Shown: in pieces, positions 28 through 14,236 of the stretch | Layout of the letters: every line of letters starts with the position of its first letter | Numbering within the stretch: the stretch's first letter is position 1 | NCBI GenBank assembly: GCA_025351005.1 | Contig: JANXWS010000040.1 | Span: 1-64,000 of the forward strand | Direction of reading: 5' to 3' | Source: Pseudomonadota bacterium | GTDB taxonomy: Bacteria > Pseudomonadota > Gammaproteobacteria > Steroidobacterales > Steroidobacteraceae | DNA length: 64,000 bases | Position numbers and translations under genes: made by a program | Notes under the pieces: generated by a model | What the model was told of the DNA's origin: nothing | Seen by the model: the letters and a program-made list of their open reading frames with translations, nothing else | Databases searched by the model: none

Positions 28-1098
28 ATGCGCGAGGTTCCTTCGTTGGGGCGGGTTCCAGGAGACTCGGTGCGATCGCGACTCGTCAGCCGCCGAGACG
101 TCCTGGTCGGAGGCCTCGCGGCAGCACTGCCGTTCGGCGTGGCGGCTTGTTCCGCGAACAAGCGGCACGTCCTGCAAGTCGGCGGTCTGCCGGTGACCTG
201 CAATCTGACCCTGCCGGTCGCGTGCGTGGCGCGGGCAGCGGCGAACGGAAGCGTCGCAGCCGGCAGCCCGCGCTTCGAGTATCAGTACAGCAAGTACAGC
301 GGCTGGCCGGAAATCAAAGAGTCGCTGATGGCCGCAAGCATCGAGGCCGCCTACATGCTCGCGCCGCTCGTCATGGATCTGGCGGACCGAAAGATTCCGG
401 CGAAGATCGTTTCGCTGGGCCATCGTTCGGGTGCCGTCATCATGGTGCGCAGCGACTCCCCCTATGTCCACTTCCGGGAACTCGCGGGCAAGCGGATCGC
501 AATCCCCAGCCGATTTGCCGTCGATTTTCTGTTTCTCCGCAAGATGCTGGCCCAGGAAAACATGACGCCGGCCGACATGCAGATCATCGAGATGGCGCCA
601 CCGGACATGCCCGCGGCGCTGTACGCCAAGGCCGTGGACGCCTACTGTACGGGCGAGCCTTTCGGCGCGGCCGCCGAGCGGGCCGGTTATGCGAGGACCC
701 TGCGCATGACGCGGAACGAGTGGCGCAACTACATATGCTGCGTACTGACCGTCCGCGACGAACTGATCAGGGACAACCGACCCCTGGTCCAGGACCTCGT
801 CGACCACGTGCTTGGCGCGGGCGAATGGCTGGACGCGAAGCAGGAGAACCGCTCGAAGGCCGTGACGATCGCCGCCGGTCGCGACTTCTTCAATCAGGAC
901 CCCAACATCATCCAGTTCGTCATGGAACACCCGACCGATCGCGTCACCTATGGCGACCTGAGGATGATTCGGGCGGAGTTCGAGGAGCTGATGCAGCTGT
1001 CGCTCGAGGCCGGCACGATCAAGCATCCGATTCCGTACGAAAGTTATGTCGACGAGAGCTTTGCGAAGAATGCGCAACCAACCGTCATCGCGTTGTAG
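28..1098 (+). CDS. ABC transporter substrate-binding lipoprotein, NitT/TauT (NMT1-like) type
   Basis: A periplasmic solute-binding protein of the nitrate/taurine/NMT1 class, 356 aa, and the first gene of a five-gene operon. The N-terminus has a twin-arginine motif (SRRDVLV, Arg22-Arg23), a hydrophobic stretch and a lipobox ending in Cys41 (GVAAC). It is therefore probably exported by Tat and anchored as a lipoprotein. The body has the family's 'LAGKRIAIP' segment and the usual two-lobe length. Permease and ATPase genes follow, separated by a SCO and a cupredoxin gene, which is unusual for this transporter class. The ligand cannot be read from sequence. Nitrate, sulfonate and thiamine-precursor binders share the fold, and the copper-protein neighbours suggest a copper link (inference). 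The ATG at 28 was chosen; a GTG at 70 would still keep the signal. Confidence 0.85.
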   Translation: MREVPSLGRVPGDSVRSRLVSRRDVLVGGLAAALPFGVAACSANKRHVLQVGGLPVTCNLTLPVACVARAAANGSVAAGSPRFEYQYSKYSGWPEIKESLMAASIEAAYMLAPLVMDLADRKIPAKIVSLGHRSGAVIMVRSDSPYVHFRELAGKRIAIPSRFAVDFLFLRKMLAQENMTPADMQIIEMAPPDMPAALYAKAVDAYCTGEPFGAAAERAGYARTLRMTRNEWRNYICCVLTVRDELIRDNRPLVQDLVDHVLGAGEWLDAKQENRSKAVTIAAGRDFFNQDPNIIQFVMEHPTDRVTYGDLRMIRAEFEELMQLSLEAGTIKHPIPYESYVDESFAKNAQPTVIAL

Positions 1099-1105
1099 AG
1101 TCGCA

Positions 1106-1708
1106 ATGAGCAGCGCCGTCCGCGCAGCCGTCCCGCTCGTTCTCCTGCTGCTGGCCAGCGCCGCCGGCCGCGCCGACGATGGCGCCAGCCTCAGGGCCGG
1201 CGTATTCACGCCCGCCCGGCTGGCGCCGGATTTCGCACTGCGCGGATCGAATGGCACCGAACTGAGGCTCAGCCGCTATCACGGCAAAGTCGTGCTGCTC
1301 GCCTTCGGCTACACGTCTTGCACGGAGGTCTGCCCAATTACGCTTTCGATCCTTTCGCAGGCGCACAAGAAGCTCAGGGCCGCCGGCGCGGACCTGCAGG
1401 TCGTGTATGTCACGGTTGACCCGGACCGGGACGACGTTGATCGGATGCGAACGTTTCTGGCGATCTTTGACCCGACGATTGTCGGCGGCACGGGCACGGC
1501 GGCGGAACTCGCTGCGGTGCGTCGTGACTACGGCGTCGTCGCCACGAAGCTGCCGTCCCCCGGCGGTTACTCGATCGCGCACTCGTCGTCCGTCTATCTG
1601 ATCGATCGCGAAGGCAAGTTGTGCGCGCTCATGCCCTTCGGGCACGATGCCGATGACTTCGCGCACGACGCCGGCATTCTGCTCGGGAACAAGCAGCCGT
1701 GCGCGTAA
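1106..1708 (+). CDS. SCO1/SenC/PrrC family copper chaperone
   Basis: A thioredoxin-fold SCO protein of 200 aa that normally delivers copper to the CuA site of cytochrome oxidase or similar enzymes. The CxxxC motif is Cys72-Thr-Glu-Val-Cys76 and the third copper ligand is His159 in 'YSIAHSSS', so all three SCO ligands are intact. The ATG at 1106 gives a clean N-terminal signal/anchor (VPLVLLLLASAAG). An upstream in-frame start at 1046 would lie inside the preceding gene and was rejected. It begins 8 bp after the binding-protein stop and ends 5 bp before the cupredoxin start, so it should be co-transcribed with the ABC transporter genes. No oxidase subunit is in view. Confidence 0.9.
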   Translation: MSSAVRAAVPLVLLLLASAAGRADDGASLRAGVFTPARLAPDFALRGSNGTELRLSRYHGKVVLLAFGYTSCTEVCPITLSILSQAHKKLRAAGADLQVVYVTVDPDRDDVDRMRTFLAIFDPTIVGGTGTAAELAAVRRDYGVVATKLPSPGGYSIAHSSSVYLIDREGKLCALMPFGHDADDFAHDAGILLGNKQPCA

Positions 1709-1712
1709 ATCG

Positions 1713-2156
1713 ATGCCGATGAAAATGCCGCGCTCGCGCTTGCTCTGGGTTCCGCTCCCGGCCGTCGCCCTCGCAATGGCGCTCTGGGCGGCGTGGGCGC
1801 CGCTCCCCATCGCCTCCCGCGACCAGGTATTCGCCATTCCCAAGGGCACCTGGGCGCAACGGATGGCGGGCGACAAGGTCGAGATACTGCCGTCCGAGAT
1901 CCGGCTCACGCTAGGCGTCAAGGATGTCCTCGTGCTGGTGAATCACGACGACGTGCCGCAGATTTTCGGGCCCGTCCTGATGATGCCCGGGCAGAGCTTC
2001 AAGCTGCCATTCGCGGTCGCGTCGAGCTACCAGTTCCTGTGCACGGCGCATGCGAGCGGGCAGATGACGGTGATCGTCGATCCGCAGCCGAAGTCTCCCT
2101 GGACGCGTCTCTGGTGGCGCATTGGCGCGCTCGCCAGATCCGCCCGGCGGGCGTGA
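1713..2156 (+). CDS. Membrane-anchored cupredoxin-like copper protein
   Basis: A 147-aa protein with one N-terminal hydrophobic segment (about residues 10-32) and a periplasmic cupredoxin domain. The likely copper ligands are all present: His78 in 'VNHDD', then Cys110, His113 and Met118 in 'CTAHASGQM'. This is the C-x2-H-x4-M spacing of type-1 or related sites. A Cys loop flanked by Leu and Thr suggests electron transfer or copper carriage rather than catalysis. The ATG at 1713 was chosen because earlier in-frame ATGs lie within the SCO gene. It sits between SCO and the ABC permease, 11 bp from each. It could receive copper from SCO or carry electrons; the partner is unknown. Confidence 0.75.
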   Translation: MPMKMPRSRLLWVPLPAVALAMALWAAWAPLPIASRDQVFAIPKGTWAQRMAGDKVEILPSEIRLTLGVKDVLVLVNHDDVPQIFGPVLMMPGQSFKLPFAVASSYQFLCTAHASGQMTVIVDPQPKSPWTRLWWRIGALARSARRA

Positions 2157-2167
2157 GAGGTCGGCTG

Positions 2168-2926
2168 ATGCGCAGGCCCGCCCTGATCATTCCGTCCGTG
2201 GCGGTCATTGCCGTCCTCGTCGCGGCGTGGTGGGTGCTGGTGCGTGTGACGGATAACGCCATTTTTCCGACGCCTCTGCAGGTCGTCACGGGAATGTGGG
2301 AACTGGTGAAGGACGGGAGCCTGTGGGAGCACATCGGCGCATCGCTGTTCCGCGTGGGCGCGGGATTTCTGCTCGCCGTGCTGTTCGCCATCCCGCTCGG
2401 TCTGTGGATGGGCTGGGTCCGTGGGGCGTACTCGACCCTCAATCCGCTCTTTCAGATCCTCCGGCCGATATCCCCGATTGCCTGGATTCCGATCGCGATT
2501 CTCTGGTTCGGCGTGGGCAACGCTTCCCCGATCTTCCTCATTTTCATCTCGTCCATTTTTCCGATGATCGTCCAGACGACCGCCGGCGTGCATACGATCG
2601 AGCGACGGTACCTGCGTGCGGCCGCGAACTTCGGCGTGTCGCGCTACACGGTTTTTCGCCGCGTCGTGATCCCGGCCGTGATGCCCCAGATCGTCGTCGG
2701 CATGAGGATCGGCCTGGGCGTCGCATGGCTGGTCGTCGTCGCCGCCGAGATGGTCGCACTGCGCTCCGGGCTCGGGTATCTGATCATCGATTCCCGCAAC
2801 GCGGGCAACCGTTACGATCTTGTCATCGCCGGGATGATCATCATCGGACTGATCGGTCTTTCGCTCGATGGAGCGATGCGTCTCATGGAGAAGCACCGCT
2901 CTGTCAGGTGGCGATATGCCAGTTAA
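2168..2926 (+). CDS. ABC transporter permease, NitT/TauT (SsuC/TauC) type
   Basis: An inner-membrane permease of 252 aa with about six hydrophobic helices. It has the BPD_transp_1 region and the EAA-like loop near 'RAAANFGVSRYTVFRRV', which contacts the ATPase. The start at 2168 (MRRPALII) is supported by the immediate first transmembrane helix; longer in-frame starts cover the cupredoxin gene. The stop overlaps the ATPase start by 11 bp, indicating translational coupling. It should form the membrane channel for the binding protein at 28-1098. Length and architecture are ordinary for SsuC/TauC relatives. Substrate specificity cannot be inferred from this subunit. Confidence 0.9.
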   Translation: MRRPALIIPSVAVIAVLVAAWWVLVRVTDNAIFPTPLQVVTGMWELVKDGSLWEHIGASLFRVGAGFLLAVLFAIPLGLWMGWVRGAYSTLNPLFQILRPISPIAWIPIAILWFGVGNASPIFLIFISSIFPMIVQTTAGVHTIERRYLRAAANFGVSRYTVFRRVVIPAVMPQIVVGMRIGLGVAWLVVVAAEMVALRSGLGYLIIDSRNAGNRYDLVIAGMIIIGLIGLSLDGAMRLMEKHRSVRWRYAS

Positions 2927-3662
2927 GATCGTCGTCGACGGTGTCCACAAGAGCTTCGCGTCCGATGTCGGGCCCCTGCAGGTTGTCGACGGTGTCAGCT
3001 TTACGGTCGACGACGGCGAGTCGGTAGCAATAGTCGGTCCGTCAGGGTGCGGGAAGTCGACCCTGATGAACATCGTCGCGGGATTCGAGCAGGCAGACCG
3101 GGGCTCCGTCCGCATCGACGGCGCCGAGCACGGCAGGCCGAACGCGAAGGGCATCCTGATTTCCCAGCACGGCTCGGTCTTTCCCTGGCTCACCGTGCAG
3201 CAGAACCTGATGTTCGGTCTCAATGGCCAGGCACACGGCCGCCAGACGCTCGCGGATCACTATGCGGCGATGGTCGGGCTGCAGGGATTCGAGGGAAGCT
3301 ATCCCCACGAGCTGTCGGGAGGAATGCTGAAGCGTGCTGAACTGGCGCGGGCTCTGGTCGTGAAGCCGGAAATTCTGTACATGGACGAGCCCTTCTCGGC
3401 CCTGGACGCCCTGATGAACCTCCGGATGCGAAACGAACTGCTGCGCGTGCTCGCGGAAGAACGGCACACCGTGCTGCTGATAACGCACGACGTGGAGGAG
3501 GCGATACACCTGGCGGACCGTGTACTCGTGCTTTCCCAGCGCCCGGCCCGAATCCAGGCGATGTTCGACGTGCGCCTGCCGCATCCGCGCAAGCTCTCTG
3601 GCCCTGCAGTTCAGGAACTGCGCGAGGCGATCCTGCGCGAACTCGGCGTCGACGAGGCCTAG
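2916..3662 (+). CDS. ABC transporter ATP-binding protein, NitT/TauT (SsuB/TauB) type
   Basis: A 248-aa ATPase energising the importer. Visible motifs are Walker A (GPSGCGKST, about residues 41-49), a Q-loop (ISQHGSVFPW), the signature LSGGMLKRAELARA, Walker B with catalytic Glu (ILYMDEPFSALD) and the H-loop (LLITHDVEEA). All are intact. The signature has Gly-Met after LSGG instead of the common Gln, a minor variation. The ATG at 2916 overlaps the permease gene by 11 bp and was preferred over 2868. It is the last gene of the SCO/cupredoxin/ABC operon. Confidence 0.92.
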   Translation: MPVKIVVDGVHKSFASDVGPLQVVDGVSFTVDDGESVAIVGPSGCGKSTLMNIVAGFEQADRGSVRIDGAEHGRPNAKGILISQHGSVFPWLTVQQNLMFGLNGQAHGRQTLADHYAAMVGLQGFEGSYPHELSGGMLKRAELARALVVKPEILYMDEPFSALDALMNLRMRNELLRVLAEERHTVLLITHDVEEAIHLADRVLVLSQRPARIQAMFDVRLPHPRKLSGPAVQELREAILRELGVDEA

Positions 3663-3745: not shown

Positions 3746-6370
3746 TCAGCGCGTGCGTGGCCGCAATCGCGTTACTGCTGCCGGCTCCCGTGCACTGGTC
3801 GTCGCCCTTGATCCGGCCGCCACCTTCGGCCAGATCGCAGCAACCTCCTCCGGCATGGCAGCGATGAATCGCTCGATGTCCCCGATCGGTGCCGGGCGTG
3901 CGATCAGGAATCCCTGTGCCTGGACGTCGCCACAATCGGCCAGGAACTCGAGCTGCTCCGGCCGTTCGATGCCTTCCGCCGTCACCGTCAGCCCGAAGCC
4001 CTGACACAGTCGTATCACCAGGGTCGCGATCGCCGCGGCGCCCGGGTCCGAGTCCATGTTCCGCGTCAAACTCTGGTCGAGCTTGACCCGCGTGAGCGGC
4101 AGCTCGTCGATGGACTTCAGTGACGAATAGCCGGCGCCGAAGTCATCGAGTGCCACGGCGACCCCCATCAGCCGCAGCTCCTGCAGCGCGTCCACGGCGA
4201 GCCGGCCGGTCTGCAGGGCAGTCTCCGTGAGCTCGATCTCCAGGCAGTCGGCCGGCATCTGGGCGCGACGGAGCGCGTCGGATACGGACTCGACGAAACG
4301 CCCGGTGAGGAACTGCTGGGCCGACACGTTGATCGCGACCCGTGCCTGCGGCCAGGCGCGGGCGCGCAGCGCGCGGGCGGCGTCGATCGCGCGGCGCAGG
4401 ACCCAGTCGCTCAGTTCGAGAATCAGGCCCGACTGCTCCGCGACCGCCATGAATTCGCCGGCGGCCGCGATCCGGCCGTCGGGCTGCTGCCATCGGAGTA
4501 GCGCCTCGACGACGGTAGTCTGCCGGTCGACGAGCGATACTTCGGGCTGGAAGTAGAGCAGCAGGTCGCCGGCGTCGAGTGCCCGCCGCAGCGCCTGCTC
4601 CGTGTGAAACCGGTGCGAGGCCGCGGCCAGCAGCTCGGCGTGATAGAGGCTGAAACCGTTTCGGCCGCGATCCTTCGCGTGAAACAGCGCCGAGTCCGCC
4701 GCGCGCAGCAGGGCCGCGGTCGTATCGCCGTGTTCCGGACAGAGCGCGATCCCGATGCTCAGGCTGACGAGAAGGTCGCGTTCGTCTGCCCGCACCGGCC
4801 TTTGAAACGCCTGCATGATCCTTCCGGCATAGGATTCCGCCGCCGCAGCCGAGGGGACGCCCTCGGCAATGAGCGTGAACTCGTCGCCGCCGAGCCGCGC
4901 CAGGAACGCATCCTCGCCGGCCGCCTCCAGCAGGCGGGCGGCGATTCCCTGCAGTACGAGGTCCCCAAACTGGTGACCGAGGCTGTCGTTGATGGTCTTG
5001 AAGTTGTCGACGTCCATGTAGAACACGGCGCAGCTGTCGACGCCGGCCTGCGCCTTGTCGATCGCGGCGGCAAGGTGCATTTCCAGTTCGCGCCGGTTGG
5101 CGAGGCCGGTCAAGGGGTCGTGATTGGCGAGATGGCGGAGCTGCTCCGTGCGTTCGGCCACCCGGTCCTCGAGCGCGGCCTGGTTCGCCTGCAGTGCGCT
5201 CTGGCTCGTGTGCAGGGCTGCGGCCAGGTCGTTGAACGCGAGCGCGAGCTCGTCAAGCTCGCGCAGGCCGCCGCGGGGAACGCGGGCTTCGAGTGCGCCA
5301 CCGGCCAGGCGGCGGGTGCCTTCGAGCAGACGCCTCGCGGGACCCACCATTCCGTACGCGAGGATCCCCGCGATCACGAGGACCACACCGAGTACGCTGG
5401 CGGCAACGTCACGGAGGTGAGCCTCGGCCATCTCTGCCGTGACTCGGGCCCGGCCGGCCTCGTGCGTCAGCGCTTCCCACGCTGGCTTCTGCAGATCCGC
5501 CGCAACCAGCGTCGCGAGCTGCTCGCCCGACGAGGTGAACGCCGCACGTGTCGTGGTGATCTGGCGCTGAACGTCGAGGAATCGGGTCGTGCCGCGCATC
5601 GCGGTCCCGAAATCCTCGCGCTCCAGATCTAGCCACGCTGCGCCCGGCGATTGCGAAAGCTCCGGCAGGTGTTCGCGGACGAGCGCTTCGAACGCGTTGC
5701 CGTCGCGCGCCACCGCGTGCTCGGCTGCCGCCGTGGGAGCCGCAAACAATTCGATCATGCTCGTGCGCAGCGCCGCGGCGGACCGCGACAGGTCCGCGAG
5801 CGACTTGCGGGCGAGGAGCTGGTCGCCCGATTCGACGCCGTTGCCTGCGCGAGCGCTTCGGCTTGCGAGCGCCTCGGTCGCCGCCAGTGCCCCGCGGGCA
5901 TGCTGCCCGCGCTGCCGGTAGAGCTCTGCGAGCGCGAGCCCCTGTTGCTGGAAGGCCTGCAGCCGGTCGCGGAGATTGGGCCTGACGCCTGCGGGGGGCC
6001 CGGGCGCGAGGCGCGCAAATTCGTCGTAGAGCTCGAGCAGGCGCGTGCCGGACGCCCTGGCGGCGCCGAGATCGTCGGCGGACGGGCTGCCGGACAGGCC
6101 TATGACGCGGCGATCGAAGGCCGTGAGCGCTTCGCCCAAGTCACGTGACAGCCTGAGGACGGGCTCGAAACGGCTCTCGACGGCCCCGACCAGTTCAGCC
6201 GTCTCGCTGGTGCTCCGCTGCGCGATTCGCATGCCGACCAGGAACACGCCGAGCACCGCGACGATGGCGAGCGCGAGATAGCTTGCGAGCGACAGCCGGA
6301 CGCGAAACACGGACGCCCATCGCGGCGTTCCGTCGCCAACCCCCGATTGCCCAGCTTGCCCGGTGTCCAT
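3746..6370 (-). CDS. Membrane GGDEF-EAL cyclic-di-GMP turnover protein
   Basis: An 874-aa inner-membrane signalling protein. It has one transmembrane helix near residues 28-48, a long periplasmic helical sensor region, a second helix near 320-345 and a HAMP-like linker. A GGDEF domain (about 415-580) and an EAL domain (about 600-850) follow. The GGDEF motif is intact (RLGGDEF), but the RxxD inhibitory site five residues upstream is absent. The EAL domain keeps its catalytic set: EALLRW, INVSAQQF, IELTET, DDFGAGYSS, RVKLDQS, AEGIE and the late QGF. Both synthesis and hydrolysis of c-di-GMP are therefore chemically possible. The start at 6370 follows a GAGGAG-like ribosome site, and translation from further upstream gives Arg/Pro-rich non-membrane sequence. 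It stands alone, convergent with the ABC operon. The sensed signal is unknown. Confidence 0.93.
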   Translation of the reverse strand: MDTGQAGQSGVGDGTPRWASVFRVRLSLASYLALAIVAVLGVFLVGMRIAQRSTSETAELVGAVESRFEPVLRLSRDLGEALTAFDRRVIGLSGSPSADDLGAARASGTRLLELYDEFARLAPGPPAGVRPNLRDRLQAFQQQGLALAELYRQRGQHARGALAATEALASRSARAGNGVESGDQLLARKSLADLSRSAAALRTSMIELFAAPTAAAEHAVARDGNAFEALVREHLPELSQSPGAAWLDLEREDFGTAMRGTTRFLDVQRQITTTRAAFTSSGEQLATLVAADLQKPAWEALTHEAGRARVTAEMAEAHLRDVAASVLGVVLVIAGILAYGMVGPARRLLEGTRRLAGGALEARVPRGGLRELDELALAFNDLAAALHTSQSALQANQAALEDRVAERTEQLRHLANHDPLTGLANRRELEMHLAAAIDKAQAGVDSCAVFYMDVDNFKTINDSLGHQFGDLVLQGIAARLLEAAGEDAFLARLGGDEFTLIAEGVPSAAAAESYAGRIMQAFQRPVRADERDLLVSLSIGIALCPEHGDTTAALLRAADSALFHAKDRGRNGFSLYHAELLAAASHRFHTEQALRRALDAGDLLLYFQPEVSLVDRQTTVVEALLRWQQPDGRIAAAGEFMAVAEQSGLILELSDWVLRRAIDAARALRARAWPQARVAINVSAQQFLTGRFVESVSDALRRAQMPADCLEIELTETALQTGRLAVDALQELRLMGVAVALDDFGAGYSSLKSIDELPLTRVKLDQSLTRNMDSDPGAAAIATLVIRLCQGFGLTVTAEGIERPEQLEFLADCGDVQAQGFLIARPAPIGDIERFIAAMPEEVAAIWPKVAAGSRATTSAREPAAVTRLRPRTR

Positions 6371-6861
6371 CGGCTGCGTCAGCTCCTCGCCGGCGTCGCG
6401 AGGCGGCCATCGCGTGGCCGCCCGCGCGCTGTACCCGTCACATCCCGGGCGGTTGCCTCGGTAATCGGCCGGGTCCGGGGGCGGACACCGGACCAGACCT
6501 GCCACGCTACGCCATCCAGGGCCACCGGTTGGGGGTGATGAGTCCGAATTGCGACGAGAGTCGCGATCGGCGGAGACGATGAGAATCGCGGCAGCGGCAT
6601 CGCCCGGGCGGACGGGCGGAGGACCCCCTGCACGGACTTGACGAAACGTTCCGGGTGGCGGGCCGCACGTCGGCAAAGGGCGGCGCCCTCGTACCCCGGG
6701 ACGGCGTTCCGGGGCGGGTGGGTCCCGGCGACGCAGGGCCGGCTGCTCCGGGCGTCGCGGACGCGGCACGAGCAGTCGTCGTCACCCGCCGGCCGATCTG
6801 CCCGGACGCAGGCCGTATGACGAGCTTGTATCGTTGGGTCGGAGGCGTGGCTGGCGGCCGG
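6371..6861. other. Intergenic region upstream of the GGDEF-EAL gene, nothing recognised
   Basis: About 490 bp of GC-rich sequence between the start of the c-di-GMP gene and the end of phnY. The open frames in it are Arg/Pro-rich and look non-coding. I looked for a c-di-GMP riboswitch-like fold and a strong promoter and could not support either. Confidence 0.5.
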
Positions 6862-8316
6862 TTACCAGGGAAGCGAATAGGTCTTCGTGTTGCAGAAGCT
6901 CTTCATCGCTTCGATCACTCCCTCCTTGTAGCCTAGGCCCGAATCCTTGATGCCGCCGAACGGCGTCATCTCGAGGCGGTAGCCCGGCACTTCGCGCACG
7001 TTGATGCTGCCGACGTTGAGCTCCTGGACGAAACGCGTGATCAGGTCGAGACGGTTGGTGCACAGTGACGATGACAGGCCGTACGCGGTTCCGTTGGCAA
7101 TGCGGATCGCCTCGTCGACGGTCTTGAAGCGAATGACGGGCGAGACCGGGCCGAACGTCTCCTGCCGGACGACGGTCATCTCCGGCGCGACGTGGTCGAG
7201 CACGGTCGGTGAGTACAGCGCCCCGCGGCGGATGTTGCCGATCAGCAGCCTGGCACCGCCCGCGACCGCCTCATCGACGACTGCCTCGAATCGCCGCGCC
7301 GACGCTTCATCGATCACGGTGCCCATGTCCATCGAAGGATCGAATGGGTCGCCGTACTTGACGGCACGAGTCCGCTCGACCAGCAGCTCCACGAAGCGGT
7401 CCGCCACGCTCTCCTGTACCAGCATCCGCTTGACGGCCGTGCAGCGCTGGCCCGAGTTCTTGTAGGAGCCGCTCGCCGCCAGGGTAGCTGCTTCCTCGAG
7501 GTCCGCGTCCTCGAGCACGATCAGCGGGTCGTTGCCGCCGAGTTCCAGCACCTGGCGCTTGTAGACCGCCTTGGCTGCGATGGTCTTGCCGACGGCGACA
7601 CCACCCGTGAAAGTCACCAGGTCGACGTCCCGGCTGGTCAACAGTTCGTCGGCCATCTCGGCCGGGTCGCCGGTCAGCACCGAGAGCATCTGCGGAGGCA
7701 GACCGGCCTCGTAGAGGATGTCGGCCAGCGCAAAGGCAGTCAGCGGCGTCTTCTCGCTGGGCTTGAGCACGACACGGTTGTTGGTGGCGATTGCAGGGGC
7801 CACCTTGTGAATCACCTGGTTCAACGGGTGGTTGAACGGCGTAATCGCCGTGATCGCGCCGAGCAGCGGCTCCCTCATCGTATAGACCTTGCGCCGTTTA
7901 CCGTGCGCCGTGAGGTCACACGAGAACACCTCGCCGTCGTCCACCAGCGCCTGGTTTGCGGCGAACAGCAGCACGTCACAGGCACGGCCGACCTCGTACT
8001 GCGAGTCCTTGAGGCACAGCCCCGACTCGAGCGTGATCAGCCGCGCGAGCGCGTCGCGCCTGGCCGCAACGATGGCTCCCGACTGCATCAGCAGCCGGTA
8101 GCGGTCGTATCGCGACAGAGTCGAGCGGTACGCGCGCGCGACCTCCAGCGCCCGCCTGACGTCGTCGGTGGTGGCCTTCGGAACGGTACCGACGAGTTCG
8201 GCGGTGTAGGGGTGGCGGACCTCGATGATCCGGCTGCGAGAGACTTTCTCGCCCGCGATGCGCAGCGACTCCCGGATCAACTCGCGCGGCTCGGGCCGGT
8301 CGGCTGCGACGGACAT
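6862..8316 (-). CDS. phnY: Phosphonoacetaldehyde dehydrogenase (aldehyde dehydrogenase family)
   Basis: A 484-aa NAD(P)-dependent aldehyde dehydrogenase. Visible motifs are the general-base Glu in VLELGGNDP (about residue 256), the catalytic Cys in NSGQRCTAVKR (about 292) and the late MTPFGGIKDSG element. The family alone does not give the substrate. The assignment rests on context: it directly follows phosphonoacetate hydrolase, with AEP transaminase across the regulator. Together these make the known PhnW-PhnY-PhnA route. It would oxidise phosphonoacetaldehyde to phosphonoacetate in the cytoplasm. A strong AGGAG ribosome site overlaps the phnA stop codon, 9 bp upstream of the start, so translation is probably coupled. 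Confidence 0.88.
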   Translation of the reverse strand: MSVAADRPEPRELIRESLRIAGEKVSRSRIIEVRHPYTAELVGTVPKATTDDVRRALEVARAYRSTLSRYDRYRLLMQSGAIVAARRDALARLITLESGLCLKDSQYEVGRACDVLLFAANQALVDDGEVFSCDLTAHGKRRKVYTMREPLLGAITAITPFNHPLNQVIHKVAPAIATNNRVVLKPSEKTPLTAFALADILYEAGLPPQMLSVLTGDPAEMADELLTSRDVDLVTFTGGVAVGKTIAAKAVYKRQVLELGGNDPLIVLEDADLEEAATLAASGSYKNSGQRCTAVKRMLVQESVADRFVELLVERTRAVKYGDPFDPSMDMGTVIDEASARRFEAVVDEAVAGGARLLIGNIRRGALYSPTVLDHVAPEMTVVRQETFGPVSPVIRFKTVDEAIRIANGTAYGLSSSLCTNRLDLITRFVQELNVGSINVREVPGYRLEMTPFGGIKDSGLGYKEGVIEAMKSFCNTKTYSLPW

Positions 8317-8325
8317 TGCGATCTC

Positions 8326-10306
<1,981 letters not shown>

Positions 10307-10336
10307 CGCGGCCTCGGCTGGCTGGCGGATGGCGAC

Positions 10337-10384
10337 ATCTTAGCTCAATTGCAGATTGTCGACAATATGCAATTGGAGTAGGCT
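10337..10384. promoter_or_regulatory. Divergent phn promoters with a 30-bp palindromic GntR operator
   Basis: Positions 10346-10375 form an inverted repeat, arms CAATTGCA and TGCAATTG around the perfect core ATTGTCGACAAT, with one mismatched symmetric pair (G10354/A10367). The core resembles FCD-type GntR sites. TTGTCG from the core can act as -35 on each strand with exactly 17 bp to a -10: TAAGAT on the minus strand (10342-10337, gntR) and TAGGCT on the plus strand (10379-10384, phnW). A bound dimer would block both promoters. The palindrome is seen directly; promoter function is inferred. Confidence 0.75.
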
Positions 10385-10477
10385 AGTACCAGCCCTGCGG
10401 GTGCGCGACGATGGCGATTCCTGCACGGTCCGACGGCGGCCGCCAGGCACTGGGCCCGTTTCCAGATGGAGAGCCGC

Positions 10478-11605
10478 ATGACTGCTGACCCGATCCTGCT
10501 CACTCCCGGGCCGCTGACGACGTCGCTGCGCACCAAGCAGAGCATGCTGCGTGACTGGGGCTCGTGGGACGTCGACTTCAATTCGATCACCACGCGGCTG
10601 CGCGAGTCGCTGGTCCGCATCATGCACGGACAGGGTACCCACGAATGCGTGCCGCTGCAGGGCAGCGGCACCTTTGCGGTCGAAGCGGCCATCGGCACAC
10701 TCGTGCCGCGCGCGGGCCACGTGCTCGTTCCCCAAAACGGCGCCTACTGCCAGCGCATCGCGCGTATCTGCAGGGTGCTGGGACGGCGGCTCTCGACGAT
10801 CGATTATGCCGAGGACGTGCAGGTCCGCCCCGACGACGTCGACCGCCTGCTGACGCAGGACCCGACGATCACCCATGTCGCACTCGTGCACTGCGAGACC
10901 AGCACGGGGATCCTCAATCCGCTGCAGGAGATCGCGGCGGCGGTGGCCAGACACGGCAAGGGACTGATCGTCGACGCCATGAGCACGTTCGGGGCCCTCG
11001 AAATCGACGCCAGCAGGACGCCCGTCGACGCCGTGGTCGCGGCGTCGGGGAAGTGCCTCGAGGGCGTTCCGGGGATGGGTTTCGTACTGGCGCGCCGGGC
11101 GGCGCTCGAGCGCTGCGAAGGCGTCAGCCAGTCGCTGGCGATGGACCTGTACGACCAGTGGACGTACATGACCCGTACCACGCAATGGAGATTTACGCCG
11201 CCGACTCACGTGGTGGCGGCGCTGGACGCGGCCCTCGCCCAGTACTTCGCCGAAGGGGGCCTCGCCGCGCGGGGGGCCGCATACGCCGCCAATTGCCGGC
11301 AGCTGATCGAGGGGCTGACCGGCCTCGGACTGCGCACCTTCCTGCCGGCCGCCATCCAGGCGCCGATCATCGTGACCGTGCACGCGCCGGATGATGCCCG
11401 CTACGAATTCAAGCGCTTCTACAACGCAGTCAAGGAGCGCGGCTACATCCTCTACCCCGGCAAGCTCACGACGGTCGAGACCTTCAGGGTGGGTTGCATG
11501 GGGCAGCTCGGCGCTTCGGGCATGCGTGGCCCCGTCGCCGCGATCGGCGCCGGCCTTCGCGACATCGGGATTTCCTCACCCGAGCTCGTGCGCGACATGG
11601 TCTGA
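10478..11605 (+). CDS. phnW: 2-aminoethylphosphonate:pyruvate transaminase
   Basis: A PLP-dependent class V aminotransferase of 375 aa that converts 2-aminoethylphosphonate plus pyruvate to phosphonoacetaldehyde plus alanine. Diagnostic features are the N-terminus [10 protein letters not shown], the DWGSWDxDF segment, GSGTFAVEA in the cofactor-binding part, and the PLP lysine Lys192 in [12 protein letters not shown]. Length fits the family. The ATG at 10478 has GGAGAG just upstream and was preferred over 10466. It is transcribed away from gntR-phnA-phnY. No phosphonatase (phnX) is nearby, so carbon leaves through PhnY and PhnA. No phosphonate transporter is seen in the window. Confidence 0.93.
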
Positions 11606-11695: not shown

Positions 11696-14236
11696 GTGAA
11701 CACCGTCGGTCGGTCCTTGCGGCAGCGCCTCAACCTGTCGCGGATCGCGCTCGCGCATCCACGATTCACGATCGGGGCGTGGTTGCTGATAGCGGTTGGC
11801 GGATCGCTCGCGGCATGGACACTGCCGATCGCGCTGTTTCCGGACATCGTCTTCCCCGTGATCGTCGTCAGCGTCGCCGCCGACGGCTTGCCGGTCGAAG
11901 CGGTCGAGCGCGACGTCACCGTACCGATCGAACGGCGGCTGCTAGCGGTCGGTGACCGCGGCGTGATCACCTCGACATCGACAGCGCAGCACGCGCTGCT
12001 GACCGTGCCTTTCAACGTCGGCGTCAGCATGGAGGACGCGGCGGGCCGTGTGCGGAGTGTGCTACTGGGAGTGCCGCTGCCACCCGCCGCGACGTGGACG
12101 ATCAGCCGCGTGGACTTGAACGAGTCACCGATCGTGACCTACGCGATCACGCCCGGGGCGACGGCTGCGGCGCTGGACCGGGACGCCGTGGGGCGGCTCG
12201 CGTCACGGCTCGGCCGCGTGCCCGGCGTCGCACGCGTCGTCGCCCTCGGCGACGCCCCACCACAACCGGGCTCGCCGCCAACGCGCGTCCGCCTGGACGG
12301 ACAGCCGGCGCTCGCCCTCGAGGTCGTCAAGCAGGCCGGCGCCAACACGCTCGAGGTGGCGCGCGGCCTGGCAGCCGCAGACCGGGATTCAGGGGTGCAC
12401 GATGCCCTCCGCGTCGTGTCCGTGCGTGCGGAGGCGCCGTTCATTCGCGAGGCGACCGGCGCCACCTTGGAGGCGTTGTGGATCGCCGTCCTCCTGTCCG
12501 TGCTGGTGATCCATCCGTTCCTGGGCAGCACCCGGGCGACCGCGATCGCGGCGCTTGCCATCCCGACCTCGCTGTTCGGAACCCTTCTCACGATGGCCCT
12601 TGCAGGGTTCAAGTTCGAGACGATCACGTTGCTCGCGCTTGCGCTCGTCATAGGCATCATCGTCGACGACGCGATCGTCGACGTCGAGAACATCTCCCGC
12701 CACCTGCCCGGCGCCGAGTCCCCCGGCCTGGCCGCGCGGCGCGCGACCGACGAAATCGGGCTGACCGTAAGCGCGGCAACTCTCACGATCGCCGCTGTCT
12801 TCGTACCGGTCGGCCTGATGGGCGGCGTCGTCGGAACATTCTTTCGGCCGTTCGGTCTGACGATCTCCGCTGCCGTGCTGACATCGCTGCTGGTGGCGCG
12901 GACGCTGACGCCCGTTCTTGCCGCGCGCTGGCTCAAGGTTCCCGACGGCCGGCCCCCGCTCGGGCGATGGACGCGATTCAGCGATGCCTATCGGCGCGTC
13001 CTGCAGTGGTCACTCCGGCATCCAGCCTCGGTGCTCGCGACGGCCGCAGTCAGCTTGGGCGCCGGAGTGGCCGTCATTCCGTTGATTCCGCAAGGGTTCA
13101 TCCCGGCGCTCGACCGCGGCGAGTTCGAAGTGCACTTCTCCATCGCGACCGGCTCCGGCCTTGCGGCTGCCGACGACGCGGCGTCGCGGCTTGCCCGGCT
13201 CGCCGGCGCCGACCGCGACGTGCTCCAGGTCCTGTCCGTAGCCGGTACCGCGGAGGGCGACCCCGACCGCGGCGTCCTGCGAGTCGCACTCCGGCCGGAT
13301 CGCACGTCCACGACCAGGGCTGTCGAGGCCCGATTGCGCCGGACGCTCGGGTATGACGCCGCGCTTCGGGTGAGCATCGACAACGTTCCAATCATCGCGG
13401 TCGCGGCGCAGCAACCGCTCGCCGTGACGCTCACAAGCGAGGACCCGAGCGCGCTAGCGGGTGCGGCGAAGGACGTCGCACGACTGATGTCCGGTTGGCC
13501 CGACGTTGCGGATCTCGCAATCGCAGGCGCAGGTCCGGATGGCGACGGGACGTGGCTGCGGCGCGACGGGCACCCGGCGGTCGTCGTGCGCGGCAACCTG
13601 ACGGGGCGCAGCGCGCTCGGGGCAATCAGCACGCGAGTCCTGGTCGACGTGCCGAAGGTCCTTCCGCCTGGCGTCGGCCTCGCCCTGGCGGGCGAATCGG
13701 CGCAGGCCGCCGAGGTGTTCGGTCATTTCGCGACGGCACTGACGCTGGCGGTCATCGGTGTCGTCGTGGTGCTGCTCATTCTGTTTCGCAGCTGGCAGGA
13801 TCCAGTGGCGATCGCGATCGCCCTGCCGTTGTCAGTCGTGGGCGCGATGCTCGGCCTGTTTGTCGCCCGCAGCGACTTCGGAATTGTGTCGTTGCTAGGG
13901 CTCGTGTTTCTCGCCGGCCTCGTGAACAAGAACGCGATCATCCTGGTCGACCGAATCAACCAGCAGCGGGCCGCCGGCCTCGATCGCGATGCGGCGATCT
14001 TGGACGCCGGGCCGGTGCGACTACGGCCGATTGCGATGACCACGGCTGCGGCCGTACTCGGCATCCTGCCGATTGCGCTCGGCTTCGGAGCCGGAGCCGA
14101 GTTGCGCGCCCCGATGGCGGTCGCGATCATCGGCGGGCTGCTCACCTCGACGCTGCTGAGTCTCATCGTCGTGCCGGTCGTCTACCAGCTTCTCGATCGG
14201 TTACGGCCGCGATTCGCGGAGTCCGGCGCACGCTAA
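11696..14236 (+). CDS. Compact RND-family efflux permease
   Basis: An 846-aa member of the AcrB/MexB-like RND superfamily with two repeated halves. Transmembrane segments include ALWIAVLLSVLVIHPF and the TM4 motif VIGIIVDDAIVDVENIS, which carries the two proton-relay Asp residues (about residue 325). The second half keeps GLVNKNAIILVDRINQQR. It is about 150-200 residues shorter than typical AcrB-type pumps. The shortage falls in both periplasmic halves, so the TolC-docking subdomains are probably reduced or absent. It starts with GTG and lies 90 bp after phnW. No membrane-fusion or outer-membrane partner adjoins it. The substrate is unknown. Confidence 0.85.
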   Translation: MNTVGRSLRQRLNLSRIALAHPRFTIGAWLLIAVGGSLAAWTLPIALFPDIVFPVIVVSVAADGLPVEAVERDVTVPIERRLLAVGDRGVITSTSTAQHALLTVPFNVGVSMEDAAGRVRSVLLGVPLPPAATWTISRVDLNESPIVTYAITPGATAAALDRDAVGRLASRLGRVPGVARVVALGDAPPQPGSPPTRVRLDGQPALALEVVKQAGANTLEVARGLAAADRDSGVHDALRVVSVRAEAPFIREATGATLEALWIAVLLSVLVIHPFLGSTRATAIAALAIPTSLFGTLLTMALAGFKFETITLLALALVIGIIVDDAIVDVENISRHLPGAESPGLAARRATDEIGLTVSAATLTIAAVFVPVGLMGGVVGTFFRPFGLTISAAVLTSLLVARTLTPVLAARWLKVPDGRPPLGRWTRFSDAYRRVLQWSLRHPASVLATAAVSLGAGVAVIPLIPQGFIPALDRGEFEVHFSIATGSGLAAADDAASRLARLAGADRDVLQVLSVAGTAEGDPDRGVLRVALRPDRTSTTRAVEARLRRTLGYDAALRVSIDNVPIIAVAAQQPLAVTLTSEDPSALAGAAKDVARLMSGWPDVADLAIAGAGPDGDGTWLRRDGHPAVVVRGNLTGRSALGAISTRVLVDVPKVLPPGVGLALAGESAQAAEVFGHFATALTLAVIGVVVVLLILFRSWQDPVAIAIALPLSVVGAMLGLFVARSDFGIVSLLGLVFLAGLVNKNAIILVDRINQQRAAGLDRDAAILDAGPVRLRPIAMTTAAAVLGILPIALGFGAGAELRAPMAVAIIGGLLTSTLLSLIVVPVVYQLLDRLRPRFAESGAR

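Follow-up and report, generated by a model that had tools for sequence, protein, structure and literature searches.

The first 64,000 bases of contig C83 (JANXWS010000040.1), from the draft genome of a Steroidobacteraceae bacterium (GCA_025351005.1), are here called the window. At their very start lie five tightly packed genes that combine the parts of a NitT/TauT-type ATP-binding cassette (ABC) importer with a SCO1/SenC protein and a cupredoxin. The genome comprises 2.71 Mb in 90 contigs and is estimated to be 85.8% complete. The contig begins at window base 1 and the first gene starts 27 bp in, with the upstream DNA outside the contig, so the start codon and promoter of this gene are uncertain.

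All five genes are on the + strand. The first encodes a substrate-binding protein of the NMT1/NitT-TauT type with an Arg-Arg export signal (28..1098; Pfam NMT1_2, 94.1 bits against a cut-off of 24.7), followed by genes for the SCO1/SenC protein (1106..1708; 126.8 bits against 22.8), a membrane-anchored cupredoxin (1713..2156), a NitT/TauT-type permease (BPD_transp_1, 2168..2926; 80.0 bits against 26.4) and a NitT/TauT-type ABC ATPase (2916..3662; 104.1 bits against 25). Pfam recognizes four of the five products above cut-off, the cupredoxin being the exception, and thereby all three parts expected of a NitT/TauT importer (NMT1-type binding protein, BPD_transp_1 permease and ABC ATPase). The open reading frames and Pfam matches bear out the initial annotation, which described these five genes in this order. 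The spacing of 5-11 bp that it gave is close to that found: the first four genes are separated by 7, 4 and 11 bp, and the permease and ATPase genes overlap by 11 bp. It also called the binding protein a Tat (twin-arginine translocation) lipoprotein, which suits the window protein but not its family as a whole. Loose patterns detect an Arg-Arg pair close to the N-terminus in 80/80 relatives and a lipobox-like motif in 25/80.

Conservation and distribution of the gene order

We scanned one genome per species from 84,980 species with six peptide patterns, so that the loci found are those matching one of the patterns. The scan yielded 95 relatives of the binding protein, 80 of which were retained (66-83% identical to the window protein). 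The cassette counts exclude loci L001-L005, which are SCO matches from the window's own genome. All five genes lie on one strand at 70 of the 80 loci, in identical order in 70/70. Thus, the gene order is not due to chance. At eight loci (L007, L013, L021, L031, L033, L045, L047 and L048) the contig stops 2-160 bp past the last gene found. The other two, L084 and L085 from Acidobacteria, keep the binding protein-SCO-cupredoxin part, and their closest transporter genes are elsewhere in the genome. Downstream of the cupredoxin they encode a small CxxCH protein and then another cupredoxin (PF13473, E 1e-17), and in L084 a P-type ATPase gene comes next on the opposite strand. At one of the 70 complete loci (L010), the cupredoxin and permease genes are separated by a gene for an outer-membrane protein (Alginate_exp). 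The 11-bp permease/ATPase overlap recurs in 59 of the 70, with starts picked nearest to the window's. Two more relatives from the same family, outside the 80 Evolutionary distances among the proteins of the five genes correlate at 0.56-0.81 (69 loci; species relatedness uncontrolled).

The CxxCH protein is heme-c-like and is joined to the Acidobacterial cassette at three loci (L079 4050-4421, L084 4382-4771 and L085 11980-12369). With Pfam, the L079 protein has matches below cut-off and the L085 protein none. It presumably resembles the cytochrome domain of the urate hydroxylase PuuD.

The carriers are scattered bacteria of soil and water. By record titles, they include Gammaproteobacteria (Steroidobacter, Cellvibrio and Panacagrimonas), Burkholderiales (Roseateles, Rhizobacter, Massilia, Duganella, Rugamonas and Aquabacterium), Sphingomonas, Acidobacteria, and contigs labelled otherwise. 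Named isolates of Roseateles, Massilia, Duganella, Rugamonas, Steroidobacter and Sphingomonas carry the cassette. Confinement to close relatives, which the initial annotation had named as telling against its proposal, is thus not what we found, as the order spans Gammaproteobacteria, Burkholderiales, Sphingomonas and Acidobacteria. Among 60 relatives of the window's genome, itself counted, a family-level match (E <1e-190) occurs in four and any match at 1e-3 in 12. E <1e-180 was reached only by this genome and by the genome G458, among 398 genomes from its own phylum and 297 from that of G458 with at most 5 or 6 candidates scored per genome. Being rare yet widely scattered, the cassette appears to have spread by horizontal transfer, as its distribution suggests.

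The SCO protein, the cupredoxin and the binding protein

Sequences below 75% of the length of the window protein were excluded from the alignments, which kept 81/81 rows for the binding protein, 79/79 for SCO, 78/78 for the cupredoxin, 72/74 for the permease and 69/71 for the ATPase. Alignments A1-A3 hold 44, 43 and 27 sequences picked for diversity. The SCO protein combines the SCO1/SenC Pfam match with a CxxxC motif and a distal His, and its best solved relative is Blr1131 (4wbj, E 3e-40). Its ligands are conserved as initially proposed: Cys72 and Cys76 in 79/79 each and His159 in 78/79 (one gap). The window's own genome has four SCO matches above the Pfam cut-off.

The match of the Pfam blue-copper/plastocyanin model to the cupredoxin is weak, at 15.8 bits where the cut-off is 21.2. 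The predicted structure (mean predicted local distance difference test score, pLDDT, 93.2) places it in the cupredoxin fold, with 31 PDB chains matching at E 0.001 or better and amicyanin at the top (template modelling, TM, score 0.43 by query and 0.59 by target). A hydrophobic N-terminal segment, a helix in the window protein, is present in 76/77. Structure and alignment give the site as Cys110-x2-His113-x4-Met118 with Gln83. Of the four ligands initially listed, Cys110 and His113 (78/78 each) and Met118 (73/78) hold, but His78 does not, being His in 2/78. The usual place of the first His is occupied by Gln83 (Gln in 75/78, His in 3/78). This placement comes from a motif alignment by eye (N77-x4-P82-Gln83) with what we take to be N-x4-P-His53 of amicyanin, and is backed by the natural His at position 83 in L081-L083. 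A profile alignment with amicyanin was useful in the C-terminal half alone, and confirms the Cys/His loop. We infer that the altered site would suit the relaying of copper more than the role of a classical electron carrier.

None of the subunits reaches the curated NCBIfam cut-off of a nitrate, taurine or sulfonate model. The binding protein, which reaches no NCBIfam equivalog, scores 97.6 of the required 163.5 for SsuA_fam, 28.6 of 304.25 for TauA and 12.5 of 333.9 for the urea type, and the permease 148 of 209 for ntrB. A 44-member profile of the binding protein matches 3UN6, a zinc-bound Staphylococcus protein, at 135 bits, and nitrate, bicarbonate, sulfonate and taurine proteins at 48 bits or less. 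The predicted structure (mean pLDDT 82.3) also has 3UN6 as its top Foldseek match (TM 0.87 by target length). It is the title of that entry alone ("Ligand Binding Component of ABC-type Import System from Staphylococcus aureus with Zin...") that points to zinc. The closest solved relative and common motifs place the protein in the 3UN6-like group. It does not share a clade or the His set with the one nickel-carbon monoxide dehydrogenase-linked (CooS-linked) protein included, which sits on a long branch. That protein is from a Ruminococcus albus plasmid with a binding protein-permease-ATPase-cooS set, and matches 3UN6 at E 7e-68.

In a tree of 18 of the 81 family rows, the nearest Acidobacterial relatives, an outgroup, Escherichia coli TauA and SsuA, and the Ruminococcus protein, the family forms its own clade (support 100/100) and is joined with the Acidobacterial sister clade (99/98). 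TauA and SsuA, both on long branches, stand apart from it. Long branches also lead to the Ruminococcus protein and to single outgroup and sister rows; the tree was built once, with these included. The initial annotation had considered membership of a nitrate, taurine or thiamine-precursor clade as the alternative to its proposal. Separation from the nitrate and taurine/sulfonate proteins holds by models and by the 3UN6 match, and that from TauA and SsuA by the tree as well; the tree contained no thiamine-precursor protein or NrtA, and the proteins compared with 3UN6 in the profile search include none of thiamine type. By sequence, the binding protein falls in a branch of the NMT1 family that is linked to metals. 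Related stand-alone binding proteins in L121-L123 have, by eye, a chemoreceptor-like gene immediately after them, which suggests a chemotaxis role in this branch.

The mature part of the binding protein contains five conserved Cys residues (Cys58, Cys66, Cys207, Cys237 and Cys238) and 13 Met (all within 28..1098). We compared the 81 family members with 26 outgroup binding proteins, counting rows with a residue at the position. Position 58 is Cys in 81/81 and Asp in 22/25 outgroup rows; position 66 is Cys in 79/81 and His in 20/24 (codons of Cys58-Cys66, VTCNLTLPVAC, at 199..225). Three His positions of the outgroup are changed as well, His109 to Tyr (98% of the family), His166 to Asp (all) and His235 to Tyr (all), and Met or Cys is gained at 110, 139, 207 and 227 in all members. 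Cys207 (YCTGEPF, codon at 646..648) is found in 81/81 and in none of the outgroup; the Ruminococcus CooS-linked protein has Cys at 207 too, with His at 58, 161 and 166. The pair Cys237-Cys238 (736..741) is present in 81/81 and also in 23/26 outgroup rows. As it is common to most of the wider family, we dropped it as evidence for copper.

Conservation in the mature part reaches 95% or more at 17 of 18 Cys and Met residues, compared with 152 of 294 other residues (Fisher p 1.9e-4); by residue, this applies to Cys 5/5, Met 12/13 and His 1/6. Cys and Met together make up 5.9% of residues in the family, 4.4% in 15 sister rows and 3.4% in the 26 outgroup rows. In the predicted secondary structure, residues 58, 109-113, 161-166, 207-211 and 235-238 are at strand-loop-helix junctions, which line the cleft in this fold. 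The protein is a candidate metal-binding protein.

The sister clade comprises the nearest relatives of the family (E mostly ~1e-80). We found 15 matches and examined 12 regions. Cys58 is kept in 11/12 distinct members with a residue at this place, in the motif VTC[QH]L[TA]CPVTD, with three more unjudged. Cys66 and Cys207 are absent from the clade, and Cys237 is present solely in the member without Cys58. Three regions (L167, L168 and L170) encode a permease-ATPase-permease-binding protein set followed by a small [FY]TCITCAVG protein with a CxxC of HMA type. The HMA-type proteins of L167 and L148 are 46% and 39% identical to that of L170. The genomes G457 and G458, which hold the binding protein-SCO-cupredoxin set, have their only close permeases (51-55% identical; the next 25%) in a permease-ATPase-permease-HMA cluster. 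By these operons and this cluster, the same transporter class has two kinds of metal partner: one lineage pairs it with SCO and cupredoxin, and part of the other pairs it with an HMA-type protein. Two related Acidobacterial importers (L150 and L178) are beside FG-GAP/UnbV_ASPIC proteins, recognized by Pfam in L178 and by eye in L150; L150 also has, by eye, a FAD-dependent oxidoreductase of halogenase type.

A possible copper route and its alternatives

The cassette is free-standing. We applied Pfam to 39 of 77 upstream genes (+ strand, near-copies thinned) and to 66 downstream genes, and no copper enzyme recurs beside the cassette among the best 25 of 68 upstream and the best 25 of 65 downstream families, ordered by member count. 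Clustering of open reading frames around the 80 loci gave, beyond the five genes, no family common to more than 11 loci, SCO shadow frames aside.

We tentatively predict that this free-standing cassette is a copper-acquisition system built on a NitT/TauT-type ABC importer, a reading of sequence that we hold at just short of an even chance, with the direction and identity of the cargo conjectural. The exported binding protein would take Cu(I) via Cys58, Cys66, Cys207 and nearby Met. SCO may keep the thiols of the binding protein reduced, and may reduce or hand over copper. The membrane-tethered cupredoxin, with its Gln/Cys/His/Met site, could relay copper near the permease, and the permease and ATPase would then move it into the cytoplasm. 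A copper role, also proposed initially, is supported by the conserved Cys and Met, the zinc-bound nearest structure (3UN6) and an HMA-type protein encoded beside part of the sister clade. The initially listed ligand His78 is not conserved, and copper stands both as possible cargo and as possible cofactor.

Several observations weigh against copper acquisition. The cytoplasmic demand for copper is small in most bacteria, and the cassette is patchy among relatives (4/60). The His-Cys-His-Met ligand set of type-1 sites is incomplete in the cupredoxin, which lacks the usual first His in 75/78. In the binding protein, just two of the five changed His/Asp positions become Cys (58 and 66), Trp (3/3) and Gly (12/16) are strongly conserved too, and His132 and Cys237-Cys238 are shared with relatives adjoining organosulfur-type genes. 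That the candidate residues meet in space is suggested by the fold, from which their place in the pocket is deduced. The proposed site as a whole is not common to the sister clade, because Cys66, Cys207 and nearly all Cys237 are absent there. The HMA-type gene adjoins the sister binding protein in just 3 of the 12 regions examined (15 found), and one of three HMA-type proteins scanned passes the Pfam HMA model (L170, 25.8 against a cut-off of 24.8; L167 and L148 have no match at 1e-3). As for a copper-responsive promoter, no such site was seen upstream of the binding-protein gene, and a palindrome considered there, CTGTAGTACAATTACAG, says nothing about copper.

The foremost alternative is an ordinary NitT/TauT importer of an organic or sulfur compound, in which SCO and cupredoxin merely protect or reduce periplasmic thiols. 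It is unlikely in our view. An acyl-CoA dehydrogenase gene lies beside related binding proteins in four of six plasmid records, from Deinococcus, Methylocystis (with OsmC), Agrobacterium and Synechococcus pANL (cysteine synthase nearby); of the other two, one has cooS and one is unannotated. The thiol-linked protein OsmC accounts for 2/39 upstream and 5/66 downstream genes right beside the cassette itself, in at least two lineages (L006/L007, and L042 by eye), which also counts against copper acquisition. Because OsmC recurs downstream, we lowered our estimate for copper import slightly and raised that for a sulfur substrate by as little. However, the conserved cassette contains no sulfur gene, the family and its sister clade branch away from the organosulfur-linked group, and several His/Asp positions of that group are changed in the family. 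Import of a sulfur compound is thus weakened by the tree and by the changed residues.

Next in rank, and also unlikely, is that the binding protein is itself a copper protein, with SCO and cupredoxin metallating its Cys/Met site and Cu(I) as the cofactor that captures a small ligand to be sensed or imported. Candidate ligands would be a thiol, cyanide, an isonitrile, CO or an unsaturated gas. In known cases, SCO proteins load metal into a client whose copper site includes Cys; here the gene next to SCO is that of the binding protein, whose Cys are invariant. The chemoreceptor-like gene next to related stand-alone binding proteins (L121-L123) and the CO dehydrogenase beside a 3UN6-like binding protein would also fit such a role. 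No enzyme for such a ligand recurs beside the cassette, however, and metal handling explains the HMA-type partner seen in Acidobacteria at least equally well. The more specific notion of a copper-dependent solute receptor, in which Cu(I) bound by Cys/Met and loaded by SCO and cupredoxin grips a soft ligand for import or sensing, strikes us as improbable; such a receptor would add a new type to the ABC binding proteins. We consider it even less probable that the cassette delivers copper within the periplasm to a copper enzyme whose gene lies elsewhere, the ABC part powering the transfer, as is reportedly proposed for NosDFY-NosL. SCO and cupredoxin are periplasmic, the four SCO matches in the window's own genome make the cassette SCO not the sole one, and in Acidobacteria the set is extended by a CxxCH protein and a further cupredoxin. 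Against this, NitT/TauT permeases with binding proteins are, to our knowledge, importers, and no copper enzyme recurs among the immediate neighbours. The initial suggestion that the operon supplies such an enzyme in the periplasm is thus unsupported across the 39 upstream and 66 downstream genes.

Copper acquisition by this cassette would differ from the systems that resemble its parts. NitT/TauT importers with 3UN6-like binding proteins are encoded beside clade B Ni-CO-dehydrogenases, and have been proposed to import nickel (PMC6344411). The cassette shares with 3UN6-type importers the binding-protein fold, the top sequence match, the GH, MPAAL and CC motifs and the transporter families. In contrast to the His at 58, 161 and 166 of that type, its binding protein has Cys, Ser and Asp. 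The one CooS-linked operon examined has no SCO or cupredoxin, whereas the cassette has both, and the Ruminococcus CooS-linked protein (on its long branch) falls outside the Cys58 clade. The Sec-assisted organometallic (SAO) system also joins an ABC importer with thiol-redox proteins (PMC13188914). The highest-scoring NCBIfam models for permease and ATPase are SaoP and SaoA, but all scores are below cut-off (183.7 of 295 and 194.8 of 360; SaoX 45.2 of 300), and the five cassette genes have no in-frame stop codon.

The proposed outcome, copper in the cytoplasm, is shared with CcoA/CalT, YcnJ/CopD and chalkophore routes. In the passages of PMC7558416 that treat them, these are of the MFS, CopD or metallophore type and no NitT/TauT importer is named; CcoA is called the first identified bacterial copper importer, and further importers are considered likely. 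Like Blr1131, the cassette SCO has the CxxxC and His of SCO1/SenC chaperones, but it is encoded inside an ABC operon and not with an oxidase. The cupredoxin shares the fold, Cys-x2-His and Met of amicyanin and type-1 cupredoxins, and differs by Gln for the first His (75/78), the membrane anchor and a C-terminal helix. A cluster of cupredoxin and SenC genes is described in beta-proteobacteria, in a paper whose main text does not use the word ABC (PMC6769254). NitT/TauT importers, SCO proteins and cupredoxins are each known; their five-gene combination was not found described in the open-licence literature searched. Bacterial copper passage across the inner membrane is poorly known, and the presence of the cassette in named isolates makes the question testable. 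If copper import is true, the NitT/TauT family, usually annotated for nitrate or taurine uptake, would include metal importers whose ligand set changes by metal.

Flanking genes and other features of the window

Among the 39 upstream genes, the families listed are glutamate dehydrogenase (5), EAL, BrkB and response regulators (3 each), and glucokinase, MsrA, a pyridine-nucleotide oxidoreductase domain and OsmC (2 each), the rest being singletons. The 66 downstream genes include up to six alpha/beta hydrolases, OsmC (5), amidase (4), glutathione transferase (4), PmbA/TldD (2) and singletons. The OsmC-type genes are at 9513-9956 in L006, 5954-6379 in L007 and 13646-14101 in L042. At L016, L022, L033 and L041 the gene immediately before the cassette has an EAL domain, and in the window a GGDEF-EAL protein of 1007 aa (3746-6769, - strand) is encoded convergently, directly downstream. 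We rejected EAL-domain genes as a partner, attributing their frequency (3/39 upstream) to chance. A link to thiocyanate dehydrogenase, our first idea, was also dropped, since no copC/copD or Cus gene recurs beside the cassette. Thiocyanate dehydrogenase is described with copC/copD or Cus genes beside it (PMC6504805).

The palindrome CTGTAGTACAATTACAG is found 26-65 bp before the binding-protein start, exact in 9/80 loci, all Burkholderiales. Two further loci, also Burkholderiales, match the spaced palindrome pattern with one mismatch. The loci with the palindrome include L059-L065, L071, L072 and L076 (Duganella, Rugamonas and Pseudoduganella), with L062 one base off. The chance of a palindrome with up to one mismatch is 0.5% per 460 bp. 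Allowing up to two mismatches, it occurs once in four of eight genomes, twice in a fifth and not in the other three; a control pattern in the same search occurs once in 3/8 genomes. It is possibly a dedicated operator. Downstream of the Sphingomonas cassette, L083 encodes (13818-14201, + strand) a protein that by eye resembles BlaI/MecI/CopY-type repressors, a family that includes a copper regulator.

Elsewhere in the window, an RND efflux permease (11696-14236) is just 846 aa long. The top-scoring NCBIfam RND models match it in separate stretches, far below cut-off, so that some of the typical sequence may be absent. Window bases 6862-11605 encode a 2-aminoethylphosphonate degradation set, all members of which exceed their NCBIfam cut-offs: phosphonoacetaldehyde dehydrogenase (TIGR03250, 865 against 636), phosphonoacetate hydrolase (TIGR02335, 604 against 408), a PhnR-type regulator (TIGR03338, 304 against 272) and PhnW (TIGR02326, 489 against 401).

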